DNA of 50,624 nucleotides from Candidatus Cloacimonadota bacterium (GCA_029553545.1 JAKPKU010000192.1:1-50624); one strand, 5' to 3'; shown: positions 34,532 through 44,736, counted from the stretch's first letter. A program made the numbers and translations. Notes: a model not told the origin generated them from the sequence alone.

Positions 34532-34563
34532 AAAAAAGCCCGAATCATTCGGGCTTCTTTTTA
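34532..34563. terminator. Bidirectional terminator between ileS and gap
   Basis: The stem AAGCCCGAA / TTCGGGCTT has A-rich sequence on the left and T-rich on the right, so it can end both convergent transcripts. Confidence 0.92.
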
Positions 34564-34577
34564 TAATCAAATGTGAA

Positions 34578-35816
34578 TTACATGTTTTCGTATACGTATT
34601 TGGTAAGCTTGCCCAAAGAGTAAACATAAGAGCCAAGCTCATTGTCATACCAAGCAAATATTTTTGCATGAGTAACAGGTATCTCAGGTATTTGTGCTTG
34701 ATTAGCTTCTTCGTTTTTGCCTGATAGATTGATAAATCCAGTGCGAGTATGAGTCTCATGTCCTTCAATAACGCAAGAAGCAGGTTCGCCCATTACATCA
34801 GTTGAGACATTTTGTCTTTCAGAAAAGACCAATAAGTCTTTTTGTATTCCCTCACTTGCCTTTTTGTAAATGTTGTTGAGGTATTCTCTATCAATAATTA
34901 CTTTTTCATTTTCTTTTGTACAGTTTCTAAAGGTAATGTTTAAAACAATTAAAGAGACAGTTGCAGTTGGAATACGGACAGAATCAGCTAAGAAGCCGAT
35001 ATTATTAATTGCAGGTAATACTTGTGATAATGCTTTTGCTGCACCAGTAGTGGATAGGATGATATTATTTGTAATACCTCTTGATTTTCTTAAATCGCTG
35101 GCACCTGTTTTTGGAACAGAGTCAAGAATGCTTTGTGTATTGGTCATCGCATGAATTGTGGACATTGAAGCAGTGATGATATCAGAAGCATATTTGTCGT
35201 CCAAAAGAGGCTTCATCATATGAGCCAAGCCCGTTGTAGTACAGGACGCAGCAGAGATGATATTGTGCTTTGAATGGTCAAAATCTAAGTGATTAATGCC
35301 ATACACAAACATACCAGCATCAGCAGGCATTTTCTTTTCTGCATCAGATATTTTGAAAGGAGCTGAAAGGATGACTTTCTCTGCACCAGCTTCAATATGA
35401 CCGCGTAGGGAGCCTTTTGCATTGTCTGCAGCAGCACATGGGTCGACAAATGTACCTGAGCAGTCAACTACCAAGCGTACGCCTTCATTTGCCCAGTTGA
35501 TATCTTTTGGGTTTCGAGCAGTACGTAATATTTTAACTTTTTTACCATCGATAGAAAAGATTTGCGCTTCTTTATCTACAACTTTAATTTCGACCTTTTC
35601 ATTATTATAGCCTTTTAAAAAACGATGAATGCTTCCATAAGTAGAATCTGTTTCTAAGACCTGTAATAAATCGTCTAACTTTTTACCAACCTCTCTTCCA
35701 CAATTGATTACAAAAGAATCGAAAAAATTCATTTGAAGGTGATTCCAAAGTGATAACTTACCAATTCTTCCCAGGCTATTAATGCCTAACGTTCTTTCTC
35801 CTAATGGCTTTTTCAT
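34578..35816 (-). CDS. gap: Glyceraldehyde-3-phosphate dehydrogenase, long form
   Basis: This 412-residue enzyme oxidises glyceraldehyde 3-phosphate in glycolysis. The NAD fold starts GINSLGRIGKLSLW. The catalytic cysteine is in SAASCTTTGLAHM (C192) and the paired histidine in STIHAMTNTQ (H222). WYDNELGSYVYS near the end is typical. It is about 75 residues longer than common bacterial GAPDH, with extra sequence in the NAD domain and after residue 300. It lies 28 bases after the dikinase-like gene in the same direction and ends at a shared terminator. Confidence 0.93.
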   Translation of the reverse strand: MKKPLGERTLGINSLGRIGKLSLWNHLQMNFFDSFVINCGREVGKKLDDLLQVLETDSTYGSIHRFLKGYNNEKVEIKVVDKEAQIFSIDGKKVKILRTARNPKDINWANEGVRLVVDCSGTFVDPCAAADNAKGSLRGHIEAGAEKVILSAPFKISDAEKKMPADAGMFVYGINHLDFDHSKHNIISAASCTTTGLAHMMKPLLDDKYASDIITASMSTIHAMTNTQSILDSVPKTGASDLRKSRGITNNIILSTTGAAKALSQVLPAINNIGFLADSVRIPTATVSLIVLNITFRNCTKENEKVIIDREYLNNIYKKASEGIQKDLLVFSERQNVSTDVMGEPASCVIEGHETHTRTGFINLSGKNEEANQAQIPEIPVTHAKIFAWYDNELGSYVYSLGKLTKYVYENM

Positions 35817-35844
35817 GACATTCTCCTTTATTTTTTATTTAAAA

Positions 35845-38800
35845 TTATATAATACTGATCGGCGCATCGGACTGTATAGTCTCAAAATGAGTATTCCAAA
35901 TGCTGCCTGTTAGGGGATCTATAGCGAGATTATCGCCAGCTTTGATGCTAATATCATCAAAATAGCATGTTTTTTCTTTATCGTTGACTTTGAGGTTTCT
36001 ACAGTTGACGATACCTGTTTTGCCAAGTCTGGCAGCAGTAACAGCTGCATGTGAGCTGACGCCACCACGCGCAGTAATGAGCCCCTCGCTTTCAAATATC
36101 ATTGGCATATCGTCTGGGACGGTATCTGGTCTGATGAGTATTCGTGGGGTATTTGGGTATTGTTTTTTCAGTTCTATCAGGTCGTTCATATTGAAAGCGA
36201 CTTTGCCATTTAGTACATTTTGACCGATGCCCGTACCGTGTGAAATTGCTTTTTGTTTTAATACATTTTTGAACCTTAAGAGTCTTTGTTGCTTTTGTAT
36301 TGCCTGATTACGAGTTTGTAAAATATACAAATCCGATGCAGCAGGAGACTCAAAAGTGAACTCTATTTCTTGATGATTAAAAGTATAATTCTCAAGTAAA
36401 ACATGTGCATAGTGTAAAAGCTTATTGTAAATATGCGGGAACTTTACTTCGAGTGACATTTCAAGTTCTTGCTCTGTGTGAGTGTTTGTCTGAGATTTTG
36501 AGATGGGTAGAGTATTGACAAGCCCTCCAACAATATCCTCGCCCTGACTGCATAATGTGTAATCACCATAAAGATTAATACCAGAAGATTTTAAAAATGG
36601 ATTGTGAGTAAAAAGCACGCCTGAACCAGCACTGAGGCTGATATTACCAAAAGCCATTTTTTGAATAATAACAGCAGTTCCCCATTCATTAGCTATCTCC
36701 ATCTGCTTTCTATAGAGAATTGCACGGTCTGAATCCCATGATTTGATCACATTTCTTACTGCAACCCTTACTTGTTTGTAAAGGTCTTGCTCAAGATAAA
36801 CATTGTTTTCATTTAATACATTTTTGTATGCATAGGCTATGTCACGCATTTGACGCGGTGTGAATTGAGTTTTTAAGTCAACAGAACACTTCTTTTTAAA
36901 ATCTAAAATAACTTGATCAAATAGGTCCCTGTCAACCCCAAATGCCATACCCCAGCTTTGAATCAGTCTGCGATAGCAATCCCATGCTGTCCATCTGAAG
37001 TTGTGATGTTGACCTAATGCCTCTGTTAATTCATCATTCATGCCAATATTGAGAAAAGTGTTCATTGCACCAGGCATGGAGAGAGGGGCACCAGAGCGGA
37101 CTGAAAGTAATAAAGGATTTTCAAAGTTGCCAAACCTCTGTCTTGTTTTCTGCTCGAGTATATGTATATTTCTTTTTATGAGATTGTCAATATCTCTGGA
37201 GATAGCTTGATGTTTAAGGGTCGCTTCACGATATCTAAAGAGCTCTGTGCTAAATACAAACCCATTGGGTACAGGAATATTTCTCTTGATTAATTGTTTG
37301 AGAAAGTATGCTTTTGCACCGAGAAAGGCTTGATTGTCAAGCCTGGTAGACTTTTCATCAAGATGAGTAACGAGCTTTTCTGCATCATAATGCATCACCA
37401 AGTTGATGATGTTTTCTGGAAGAGTGTCCTGCATAGTATTTATCGCATCGATGATCTTCGCAATAAAGTTATCGAGTGTTTGAATAATAAACGCAGAACT
37501 AAGTAGTTCGCGATAAAAGAATTCTGATTTTTTATGGTAGAATAGCTTATAATCGGTTTCTTCAGTTTGTTTCTTGAAAAAAGATGGCATGATCTCTTTT
37601 AAAACAGGGTCAAAGTTTCTAAAGAAGAACTCATTGATGATTTCACGGACATTGTCTTGCATGAATTTTAAGATGTTTTTGTATTGCTCCATCGAAAAAG
37701 TCTCAGAGGTCAAGCTATACTTTAGCATATTGATATTTGAGGCAAAAGATTCGTTCTCTATACCATCAGCAGAGAGCCCTTCATTGATGATTTCAAGTAT
37801 TCTTAATATTCTTTTCAAAGTCCCTGCTGTAACGTATTCTAAAGGTAGCTTTTCTATCATTTTCTGGATAAGAGCAGCAGTAGTCTGTTCCAATCTTAAT
37901 GATAAACCCAAAGCGTCAAACTTACTTTCAAAGTACCTACCGTACATTGATGGAATGCCAGCAGCAATATGCCTTTTGTAGTATATTTCTTCTCTTCCTT
38001 CGCTCTTTTCTTTTTGTAAAATAACTCTCTTCAGCTTTTGTAGCATGTTGATCGTTAGCGAAAGAGTGTGTACATAGTCGTTTTTATTTAGGGCAAAGGA
38101 GAGGTCTTTTATCTCTTTATTACTAAAGAAGACATATTTTTTCAAATGGGTAATTAATTCTGTAGAATCAAAGGCATATTTCATTCTTAATAGTTGAAAG
38201 ATCTTTATTAATAGTACAATACGTGATCTGGATATTTCAGAGAAATCCATACTCTCAATTGTGCTGATTTTATCTTTTGAGATCAGCAAAACCTCTCTTG
38301 CTGTGAGATTATATTTCTCCTTGATGTGTTGCAATAAAGCATGCGTATTTCTATCTTCTTCTGTAATGTCTGCTTGGCTAACCACATGATTTGGGTAGCT
38401 ACCAGTGAGTACATTAAATTCAAGCACATCCCAAAAATCGATTATTCTTGCACAAAGATCAATATGTGTATTATTGCTTTCAGTATGGATCTGTTTTCTT
38501 AAAAAGTGGATAATTATATCGCGGGTATTTGTTAGCTCATCGAGCTTTGTAGAGCACTCTCTCAGCTCACCTTCGGCACCAATTTCATTAAAATAAACTG
38601 GGAATATGCGGCATAGCTGTTTTAATAGCTTAAAGTGGTTTTGAATTGGTGAGTTTAGTAGTTTACTAATATCTTTTTGAAACAAGTCTGTGTCAGAAAT
38701 AAAGATGCCACCAAGCTTCAAATATGCTATCAGAGCAGAAAGTACAGATTTGCATGACTCTGGTGATGACATGTATATTTCCAGATACAGCCTTATATAT

Positions 38801-39954
38801 TGAATGTGTTTGGGATTGTAGATTAATTGCCAATCTTCGCTGACTTCCACATGATCAACAAATTCAAACCCAAAGCGGAGAAGCTTTTTGATAAATAAGT
38901 CTGTTATCTCAGGGATATTAAACCGAATAATCGCTTTGCCCAAGCTTGCTAAACTATCTGGCATACTATCGGAAAACTGTTTTCTCAACTTTTCAAAAAG
39001 AGTGAAGATGTTTTCCAGAAAATCTAATAAATCTTGGATATTTGATGATGTATCAATTGTTCTAATTGCCTTATCTAAGTCGTAAATAAGATGACGATAT
39101 AAAGATTGCATCGCAGGGTGATTAAGCAGATAAATCAGAAAGTAAATCTGTTCAAACGGCGAATGCAATTGGGATGTATAGTTTCTAAAAGTGGTTGCTA
39201 TTTCATTTTGTGAGGGGATCTTTTGCAGTTCTGTGAATGAACTGCACTCCTCAGTTTCTTTTAATAGGTTTTGTAAATAGATATGTCCAATTTCTTCAAA
39301 TAACTGAGTATAATCATTTTTAAATATATTTAGATTGTGCTTGTACCAATTTAACAAATCAGTGTGTTGAAGCCAAAAAGATAGATTTTTCATGACAACA
39401 TTTTTAACCCAAACAAACAATACATCATTGTCTAATAGACTGCTCCAATTAGAGTAAAATGACTTAATATTTGAACAAAATGAATTAGGGCTTTCCATGG
39501 CAAACACTTTTAGAATCTCACTGAATTTTTGAATAAAGCTATCTCTCTGTGGGTGATTTACTTTAAGAATTAATGGCGTATAGCTGATAAGTGTGTGTAT
39601 GACTGATTCAGTTACAGGTATACTGAGTTTGTATTTTGAATTATTATTCTCAATAAGGATTTCAAAATATCTGATGAAGCGTGCTTGAGATTGCTCAAAA
39701 ATTGACTCATTGAAATAGAAATGATAGTCTTCTAAAACAATTTGCCTTAAAGATTTGATGATAAATTCATTATTCGGGTATGGATGATATAGCTCTTTTA
39801 AAAAGGCATTTAACCTCTTATGAATCCCGAATACAGCCTCGCATTGGTTGAGAAAAGCAATGTCTTCAGGAGGAATGACTATTTCTTTTTTCCGTGTCAG
39901 TAAGAGATTTTGTTCAAGCGCTTTAGAATCAATCGACTTAATCATAAATTTCAC
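35845..39954 (-). CDS. PPDK-like dikinase lacking the PEP/pyruvate barrel
   Basis: This 1369-residue cytoplasmic protein has about 860 N-terminal residues that are mainly helical, leucine- and charge-rich and not recognised. From about residue 871 it matches the pyruvate phosphate dikinase nucleotide domain: NQAFLGAKAYFL, SVRSGAPLSMPGAMNTFLN (near 955), GVLFTHNP, CSQGEDIVGG and EIEFTF...LYILQTR. The phosphohistidine domain follows with TARGGVSSHAAVTAARLGKTG (H1302). The protein ends 67 residues later, with no C-terminal TIM barrel. It could therefore autophosphorylate from ATP but must pass the phosphate to an unknown substrate, as glucan water dikinase and rifampicin phosphotransferase do. 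GAGGTG precedes the ATG. Confidence 0.85.
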   Translation of the reverse strand: MKFMIKSIDSKALEQNLLLTRKKEIVIPPEDIAFLNQCEAVFGIHKRLNAFLKELYHPYPNNEFIIKSLRQIVLEDYHFYFNESIFEQSQARFIRYFEILIENNNSKYKLSIPVTESVIHTLISYTPLILKVNHPQRDSFIQKFSEILKVFAMESPNSFCSNIKSFYSNWSSLLDNDVLFVWVKNVVMKNLSFWLQHTDLLNWYKHNLNIFKNDYTQLFEEIGHIYLQNLLKETEECSSFTELQKIPSQNEIATTFRNYTSQLHSPFEQIYFLIYLLNHPAMQSLYRHLIYDLDKAIRTIDTSSNIQDLLDFLENIFTLFEKLRKQFSDSMPDSLASLGKAIIRFNIPEITDLFIKKLLRFGFEFVDHVEVSEDWQLIYNPKHIQYIRLYLEIYMSSPESCKSVLSALIAYLKLGGIFISDTDLFQKDISKLLNSPIQNHFKLLKQLCRIFPVYFNEIGAEGELRECSTKLDELTNTRDIIIHFLRKQIHTESNNTHIDLCARIIDFWDVLEFNVLTGSYPNHVVSQADITEEDRNTHALLQHIKEKYNLTAREVLLISKDKISTIESMDFSEISRSRIVLLIKIFQLLRMKYAFDSTELITHLKKYVFFSNKEIKDLSFALNKNDYVHTLSLTINMLQKLKRVILQKEKSEGREEIYYKRHIAAGIPSMYGRYFESKFDALGLSLRLEQTTAALIQKMIEKLPLEYVTAGTLKRILRILEIINEGLSADGIENESFASNINMLKYSLTSETFSMEQYKNILKFMQDNVREIINEFFFRNFDPVLKEIMPSFFKKQTEETDYKLFYHKKSEFFYRELLSSAFIIQTLDNFIAKIIDAINTMQDTLPENIINLVMHYDAEKLVTHLDEKSTRLDNQAFLGAKAYFLKQLIKRNIPVPNGFVFSTELFRYREATLKHQAISRDIDNLIKRNIHILEQKTRQRFGNFENPLLLSVRSGAPLSMPGAMNTFLNIGMNDELTEALGQHHNFRWTAWDCYRRLIQSWGMAFGVDRDLFDQVILDFKKKCSVDLKTQFTPRQMRDIAYAYKNVLNENNVYLEQDLYKQVRVAVRNVIKSWDSDRAILYRKQMEIANEWGTAVIIQKMAFGNISLSAGSGVLFTHNPFLKSSGINLYGDYTLCSQGEDIVGGLVNTLPISKSQTNTHTEQELEMSLEVKFPHIYNKLLHYAHVLLENYTFNHQEIEFTFESPAASDLYILQTRNQAIQKQQRLLRFKNVLKQKAISHGTGIGQNVLNGKVAFNMNDLIELKKQYPNTPRILIRPDTVPDDMPMIFESEGLITARGGVSSHAAVTAARLGKTGIVNCRNLKVNDKEKTCYFDDISIKAGDNLAIDPLTGSIWNTHFETIQSDAPISII

Positions 39955-39963
39955 CTCAATTAC

Positions 39964-43983: not shown

Positions 43984-44736
43984 ATGGTCTTAGAAGCAGA
44001 TATTTTAAAAGTATTTCTTTATACAGGTGCAGCGCTTAGCACAGGTATTGCGTCTCTTAGCGCAGGTTTTGGCGAAGGATATGCCGCAGCACATACAGCA
44101 CGCTCAATCATGAGACAACCAAATGCAAGTAGTGTGCTCACACGAACAATGCTCATCAGCCAGGCAGTAGTTGAATCAGGTGCTATTTTTGCTTTAGTTA
44201 TCTCTATGCTTTTACTCTTTGGTGGTTTTACTCAAGGTGGTGCTGATTGGGCAAAAGCCTTTAGTTTACTCGGCGCAGGGCTTGCAATAGGGCTTGGTTG
44301 CACAGGACCAAACTTTGGCTCAGGTTATTCTGCAGCAAGGGCAATAGAAGGTATTGGCAGAAATCCATCAAAAAGTGGTAGAATAACTGCTAATATGCTA
44401 ATAGGTCAAGCTATTACAGAGTCAGGAACAATCTTTGCTCTTGTCGTTTCACTATTATTATTGTATACCGTTCCAGCACAAATGTCTGAACCGTCTTTAG
44501 CTAAGATGATCATGAAGGCATGTGCATATATCACAGCAGGCATAGTTATTGGTATTGGTACTTTTGGACCAGGAACAGGTATCGGTTATGTTGCTGGAAA
44601 AGCGAACATTTCAATTTCAAAGCATTCAAAAGATCAGGGTGTTATTACACGAACAATGTTCTTGGGTGCAGCAGTCTCTGAATCAACCGCAATTTATGCA
44701 TTAGTAATATCATTTTTACTGATATTTGTATCATAA
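43984..44736 (+). CDS. atpE: Triple-hairpin F-type ATP synthase c subunit
   Basis: This 250-residue protein is three tandem c-type hairpins (about 1-80, 86-162 and 172-250), each homologous to the 87-residue c subunit next door. Each second helix keeps the ion-binding glutamate: QAVVESGAIFALV (E64), QAITESGTIFALV (E146) and AAVSESTAIYALV (E233). At the first-helix site that is Gln32 or Glu32 in Na+-type c rings, the residues differ: GFGEGYAA (E31), NFGSGYSA (S113) and GTGIGYVA (I200). A GGAGG site precedes the ATG. Multi-hairpin rotor subunits are known mostly from V/A-type and Acetobacterium-like enzymes, so this is unusual in an otherwise F-type operon. Confidence 0.93.
   Translation: MVLEADILKVFLYTGAALSTGIASLSAGFGEGYAAAHTARSIMRQPNASSVLTRTMLISQAVVESGAIFALVISMLLLFGGFTQGGADWAKAFSLLGAGLAIGLGCTGPNFGSGYSAARAIEGIGRNPSKSGRITANMLIGQAITESGTIFALVVSLLLLYTVPAQMSEPSLAKMIMKACAYITAGIVIGIGTFGPGTGIGYVAGKANISISKHSKDQGVITRTMFLGAAVSESTAIYALVISFLLIFVS

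Follow-up and report, generated by a model that had tools for sequence, protein, structure and literature searches.

A PPDK-derived dikinase that lacks the PEP/pyruvate barrel and carries an all-helical N-terminal region of 866 residues is encoded in Candidatus Cloacimonadota directly upstream of gapX, the gene for a divergent GAPDH paralogue, and the two genes occur together in four phyla with very few exceptions. We consider it highly probable that the protein is a barrel-less dikinase with a partner other than pyruvate and that it is functionally coupled to GapX. It is best read as a transferase that passes phosphate from ATP through a histidine to an acceptor other than pyruvate and that is coupled to GapX. 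What is new here is a large added domain with a candidate second invariant site, together with a near-unbroken association with an unusual GAPDH across four phyla whose members are mostly uncultured. The window analysed is the whole stretch of 50,624 nucleotides (GCA_029553545.1 JAKPKU010000192.1:1-50624), and a literature search for the long-dikinase family in Cloacimonadota found no report.

A long dikinase gene precedes gapX

The sequence-only reading had placed a dikinase-like protein of 1369 residues, with its phosphohistidine at H1302, at 35845-39954. On the minus strand this frame is open for 1369 codons, and full-length homologues in four phyla show that it is real, which excludes a chance ORF or an assembly fusion. 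Stop-free frames of 1340-1410 codons were found at nearly all complete dikinase loci. Because the listed start, GTG at 39954, sits within the Shine-Dalgarno sequence GAGGTG (39957-39952), we moved the start to ATG 39945, the likely start of a protein of 1366 residues. Size and numbering are thereby corrected to 1366 aa and H1299, and the histidine itself stands. The features of the locus are as follows.

35845..39945, minus strand: long dikinase CDS, 1366 aa, stop included; ATG start, full-length homologues in four phyla
39952..39957, minus strand: GAGGTG, likely Shine-Dalgarno sequence of the dikinase, containing the listed GTG
34578..35816, minus strand: gapX, divergent GAPDH paralogue, 412 aa, 28 nt 3' of the dikinase stop
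35823..35827, minus strand: AGGAG, likely Shine-Dalgarno sequence of gapX
34536..34556, strand unassigned: terminator-like hairpin at the operon end, common to the convergent ileS; T run seen on the minus strand

Dikinase and gapX most likely form a two-gene operon, and the 5' neighbour of the dikinase is a divergently oriented gene. The nearest named relative of the dikinase (81% identity), from a Cloacimonadota MAG, has the same next gene. The region yielded no Rfam element, and a promoter scan gave sites no more numerous than in shuffles.

The C-terminal core retains the PPDK catalytic residues

Two domains make up the C-terminal part of the chain.

36298..37335, minus strand: PPDK-type ATP-grasp domain, residues 871-1216 (K878, R950, E1193/E1195, Q1210, R1212), from Pfam, PPDK alignment, structure and conservation
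35878..36246, minus strand: swivelling phosphohistidine domain, residues 1234-1356, from Pfam, PPDK alignment and structure
36049..36051, minus strand: codon of the phosphohistidine H1299, aligned to the PPDK catalytic His and invariant

Pfam placed PPDK_N at residues 911-1224 (3.7e-29) and PEP-utilizers at 1270-1346 (4.4e-13), and PPDK structures (1KBL and others) aligned to residues 876-1362 only. PPDK was also the top PDB match of a predicted structure of residues 400-1366 (pLDDT 82.6). In the alignment to Clostridium symbiosum PPDK, K22, R92, D321, E323, Q335, R337 and H455 correspond to K878, R950, E1193, E1195, Q1210, R1212 and H1299, to which we assign the catalytic roles that these positions have in PPDKs. 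The sole mapped difference from the canonical catalytic set is E1193, where PPDK has D321. None of these dikinase residues varies among 24 homologues from four phyla, and the phosphohistidine motif GG-x-(S/T)-S-H is present as GGVSSH. The proposal that the ATP-binding and phosphohistidine domains are intact was thus borne out, the mapped residues being invariant or conservatively replaced, and the alignment showed no degenerate ATP-site residue at the mapped positions.

The PEP/pyruvate barrel (PEP-utilizers_C) was not detected in the dikinase by Pfam, and the chain stops 67 residues past H1299. This agrees with the earlier claim that pyruvate chemistry is impossible within the chain. Compared with PPDK (TIGR01828; C. 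symbiosum 1KBL), the long dikinase has the same order of ATP-grasp and phosphohistidine domains, ∼30% identity over 486 residues and the same catalytic residues, but it lacks the barrel, has 866 extra N-terminal residues and coexists with a canonical PPDK. Its score against TIGR01828 is 343.6 bits, under the family cut-off of 843.45. In a tree of the core, the seven PPDKs and two truncated PPDKs included were separated from all 13 long dikinases, which grouped together with support 100/100; the tree is midpoint-rooted and so shows separation, not direction. The truncated PPDKs fell on the PPDK side on long branches and their placement is unsure; VadK is not in the tree.

Barrel-less dikinases have repeatedly shown new chemistry or regulation, as in rifampin inactivation, phenol activation and VadK. 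VadK (Rv1127c) of Mycobacterium tuberculosis is a barrel-less PPDK that autophosphorylates on a histidine and binds enzymes of the methylcitrate cycle, and the role ascribed to it is that of a regulatory kinase, not of a metabolic enzyme (PMC13400623). It resembles the long dikinase as a PPDK-derived, barrel-less ATP-grasp and His-domain protein acting beside carbon metabolism (PMC13400623). In contrast to the long dikinase, which has 866 more residues and is linked to a GAPDH, VadK is short (∼50 kDa), has no added domain, is methylcitrate-linked and is actinobacterial. In rifampin phosphotransferase and the two-component dikinases HpeHI, CreHI and PpsAB, another substrate-binding domain replaces the barrel, and a swivelling histidine moves the phosphoryl group from ATP to a small molecule (PMC12167813). 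The ATP-grasp and His domains of rifampin phosphotransferase and HpeHI are present in the long dikinase, with the N-terminal region as a candidate substrate domain. However, the ATP-grasp motif of these enzymes, like that of CreHI and PpsAB, has been described as PEP-synthase-like, whereas the long dikinase scores as a PPDK, and the domain order differs. The substrate-binding domain of rifampin phosphotransferase had no sequence match to the N-terminal region and was not among its best fold matches. A further candidate was rejected: in Methylocella a DUF47/PhoU-like protein partners a barrel-less dikinase and looked like a possible split version of the N-terminal region, but profile comparison showed no relation.

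The N-terminal region carries two blocks of invariant polar residues

The N-terminal region and its conserved parts are as follows.

37348..39945, minus strand: all-helical N-terminal region, residues 1-866, of no known family; AlphaFold2 pLDDT 85.8, no Pfam family, no clear PDB match
38470..38724, minus strand: conserved block A, residues 408-492 (FISDTDLFQKD...EIGAEGELR...DEL...HFLRKQ.H.ES); invariant polar residues in 24 sequences from four phyla
37876..37992, minus strand: conserved block B, residues 652-690 (E.IYYKRHIAAGIPSMYG...ALG), predicted beta hairpin; AlphaFold2 model and conservation in 24 sequences

Pfam gave nothing significant or consistent for residues 1-866, either in the dikinase itself or in 26 homologues, and the family profile, searched against PDB sequences, matched nothing for the region, in line with the earlier view that it lacks a known family. 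In the AlphaFold2 model the region is nearly all helix and solenoid-like, with a single beta hairpin at 651-672 providing its only longer strands. The fold search that the sequence-only reading had proposed returned no informative or enzyme-like match: Foldseek found weak matches to HEAT/ARM-type and other helical repeat proteins with TM-scores of 0.1-0.2, which at best reflect a common architecture of the predicted model, not homology. Large helical repeat proteins are often scaffolds, and protein binding is common among solenoid-like helical regions. Fusion of the N-terminal region to the core was seen in all homologues whose locus is intact.

Conservation across the N-terminal region is uneven, and in 24 sequences blocks A and B hold most of its invariant residues, many of them D, E, H, K or R. 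The window of residues 451-500 has 15 invariants (11 polar) and that of 651-700 has 16 (7 polar). As the ATP-grasp domain has at most nine invariant polar residues per 50-residue window, these windows are comparable to its best. Because invariant polar residues are so dense there, blocks A and B plausibly mark a second ligand or catalytic site, which makes the region a candidate substrate domain and lends plausibility to the earlier suggestion that it may bind an acceptor, whether glycan, metabolite or protein.

Dikinase and gapX are nearly always inherited together

A single-sequence scan of genome contigs gave one close relative; the wider reach came from searches of genome collections. Of 99 Cloacimonadota genomes sampled, 44 had the dikinase and the same 44 had gapX, which lay directly downstream on the same strand for 43 of 45 dikinase copies, the other two being at contig ends. 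Among 387 genomes of wide kinship, 54 had both genes, three had gapX only and one had the dikinase only. Two of the gapX-only genomes (G037 and G067) nevertheless contain dikinase fragments, and in the third (G104) gapX lies ∼110 bases from a contig end.

Outside Cloacimonadota, where phyla were counted by the groups of the search tool, the dikinase family was present in all seven genomes of one phylum (that of G223). In a second (that of G343) it was found in four of eight genomes; gapX was present in those same four and absent from the other four, with G343 itself covered by the wide-kinship search and left out of the gapX search of this phylum. In a third phylum (that of G217) the dikinase occurred in 19 of 28 genomes, all 19 belonging to family f106, and gapX in 18 of these 19 and in none of the nine others, the exception being a 59% complete genome. 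In part of family f106 (G217 and G355), the two genes lie apart and both are retained. One genome (G005) has a short dikinase remnant only, and its gapX is gone.

Overall, about 425 genomes were searched for both genes; ∼80 had both, ∼340 had neither and four were exceptions. Of these, G104 and G050 had gapX alone, in G050 as a partial gene where a contig begins, and G005 and G423 had the dikinase alone. In two of the four the locus lies at a contig end; one has a gene remnant and one is an incomplete genome. Hypergeometric figures for the co-occurrence overstate the evidence, as kinship among the genomes violates independence; the observations that count as independent are the occurrence in four phyla, the retention of both genes where f106 has separated them, and their joint loss in G005. 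The comparison of orthologue neighbourhoods that had been suggested thus identified gapX as the conserved partner. Viral contigs contained no relatives of the dikinase, and plasmids matched its core only, through PPDKs. As a side observation, one gapX (L043) has glgP and pgm nearby but no long dikinase.

GapX is a divergent GAPDH beside a complete standard set

The earlier description of the dikinase as transcribed ahead of gap, and so tied to central carbon metabolism, held in that the pairing is kept in four phyla, but the neighbour is a divergent 412-aa paralogue and not the housekeeping, glycolytic GAPDH gene. Like type I GAPDH (TIGR01534), GapX has the Rossmann motif, the catalytic Cys of SCTT, the His and the TGAAKA and R-(I/V)-P-T motifs. 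It differs in its length with several insertions, in having N-x-G-R in place of the IND motif, with its acidic NAD-ribose residue (ND), in 14 of 14 aligned GapX sequences, and in a score of 297.1 bits against the GAPDH-I model TIGR01534, below the curated cut-off of 367.2. The N-x-G-R motif could favour NADP use.

The same genome encodes PGK and a canonical 337-aa GAPDH (G000:C216). PEP-utilizers_C was found there in only two proteins, one of 912 aa that also has PPDK_N and is a canonical PPDK, and one of 575 aa, which is EI-like and of PTS Enzyme I size. Searches for barrel and ATP domains revealed no free-standing barrel, the result of looking for a separate partner protein as proposed earlier. 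As canonical PPDK, PGK and GAPDH are all present, the dikinase and GapX add to standard glycolysis and do not replace it. Cloacimonadota have been reported to have PPDK instead of pyruvate kinase (PMC13082233).

A proposed phosphate-transfer step and its alternatives

The pairing of dikinase and GapX suggests that a phosphate-transfer step not yet described operates at the triose level. As a specific mechanism, we propose a PPDK-derived phosphohistidine transferase in which the all-helical N-terminal region has replaced the barrel and which forms an obligate pair with GapX and acts on a small-molecule acceptor; we put this at somewhat less than an even chance. The ATP-grasp domain would phosphorylate H1299 from ATP; by analogy with PPDK, AMP would be formed and Pi converted to PPi. 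The His domain swivels in PPDK (PMC5371819), and here the C-terminal His domain may swing to an acceptor site built by blocks A and B, where the phosphoryl group would leave or, were the direction reversed, enter. The product or substrate would be shared with GapX. Such an obligate pairing with GapX would make the probable acceptor a small compound, phosphorylated or open to phosphorylation, at the level of triose phosphate and phosphoglycerate. Should it be a triose or glycerate, the reaction would add a new step to the most thoroughly studied node of metabolism. Two points weigh against this mechanism: Foldseek gave the N-terminal region no enzyme-like match but weak ones to large helical repeat proteins, often scaffolds, and the nearest functional precedent, VadK, is regarded as regulatory.

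A regulatory histidine kinase like VadK is quite possible, although on balance we doubt it. Here the core would autophosphorylate and the helical region would dock GapX or other glycolytic enzymes, with phosphorylation or binding switching GapX by energy state; if the acceptor is GapX itself, VadK would no longer be the only known PPDK to have become a regulatory kinase. The precedent of VadK, a barrel-less PPDK that autophosphorylates on His and binds methylcitrate enzymes (PMC13400623), the dedicated pairing with GapX and a solenoid-like region whose weak Foldseek matches are helical repeat proteins of a commonly protein-binding kind all speak for it. However, the invariants of the N-terminal region cluster in two short stretches of polar residues, a pattern that suggests a catalytic or ligand site more than an extended docking surface, and their density is why we favour a small-molecule acceptor. 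The two truncated PPDKs also fall outside the long clade, with their placement unsure and VadK not in the tree. The VadK-like and small-molecule readings share their first half, phosphorylation of H1299, and the partner GapX.

We regard as improbable the more specific proposal of a phosphoglycerate dikinase, an enzyme that would shuttle a phosphoryl group between 1,3-bisphosphoglycerate/3-phosphoglycerate and ATP by way of H1299 and, in parallel with the PEP/pyruvate reaction of PPDK, involve AMP and PPi. Together with GapX, it would provide a second route between glyceraldehyde 3-phosphate and 3-phosphoglycerate, linked to PPi and possibly to NADP, alongside that of GAPDH and PGK.

A degenerate paralogue or pseudo-enzyme retained as a scaffold for GapX is very unlikely: the canonical PPDK does cover the housekeeping role, but the catalytic residues are invariant or conservatively replaced in four phyla and long stop-free frames persist at nearly all complete loci. 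Still harder to credit is a split or cooperating PPDK, in which the chain would borrow the barrel of the canonical PPDK or the EI-like protein and make PEP in trans. Both candidate donors are in the same genome, but each barrel is part of a complete protein (912 and 575 aa), the neighbourhoods read show no conserved gene link to a barrel protein, the partner being gapX, and the N-terminal region with its conserved blocks would be left without explanation. Equally far-fetched is a glycan dikinase with a polysaccharide-binding N-terminal region, like the plant glucan, water dikinase (GWD), a very long ATP- and His-domain dikinase that also has a large N-terminal region: the gapX near glgP and pgm would fit, but Pfam found no carbohydrate-binding family, the N-terminal region is all-helical, the domain order is unlike that of GWD and across genomes the partner is a GAPDH instead of a glycan enzyme.

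Genomic context of the long dikinase and gapX

In some genomes of family f3 and in genome G343, a second GAPDH-like gene (~332-343 aa) lies immediately upstream of the dikinase gene, so that the operon at these loci reads gap-like, dikinase, gapX. Among the aligned f3 copies, this upstream gene has a changed TGAAKA motif.

L009, L019, L024 and L048: GAPDH-like gene upstream of dikinase
L056, 7661-8659: GAPDH-like gene upstream of dikinase

In genome G005, we detected a dikinase remnant (L061, 2824-3462), in which a segment from around residues 142-314 is fused to one from around residues 901-991. This genome lacks gapX: dikinase and gapX were lost jointly.

Locus L043 (G061:C203, 46-14422) is a cluster of glycolytic genes that runs glgP, gap, pgk, pgi, ppdk, a gene for a 272-aa protein, gapX and pgm-like. 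By eye, the 272-aa protein looks like a PPDK regulatory protein of the DUF299 type. This contig carries gapX without the long dikinase, and another gapX copy in G061 adjoins the dikinase of that genome; the contig may be foreign to G061.

Other observations

Barrel-less PPDK-like proteins were also found on plasmids. A Methylocella tundrae plasmid (L084, 553-4021) encodes one of 526 aa, whose gene overlaps a 631-aa DUF47/PhoU-like gene. The two genes may encode a distinct dikinase and its helical partner; the partner is unrelated to the N region of the long dikinase. The truncated, barrel-less protein of Rhodococcus opacus plasmid pROB02 (570 aa; L083, 2336-4048) is encoded between genes for cytochrome P450, aldehyde dehydrogenase and ferredoxin.

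Elsewhere in the window, an apparent F-type ATP synthase operon includes a gene for a 250-aa c-subunit-like protein (43984-44736). Read by eye, it apparently forms three hairpins with one carboxylate apiece (VES, TES and SES), and is possibly a triplicated c subunit.
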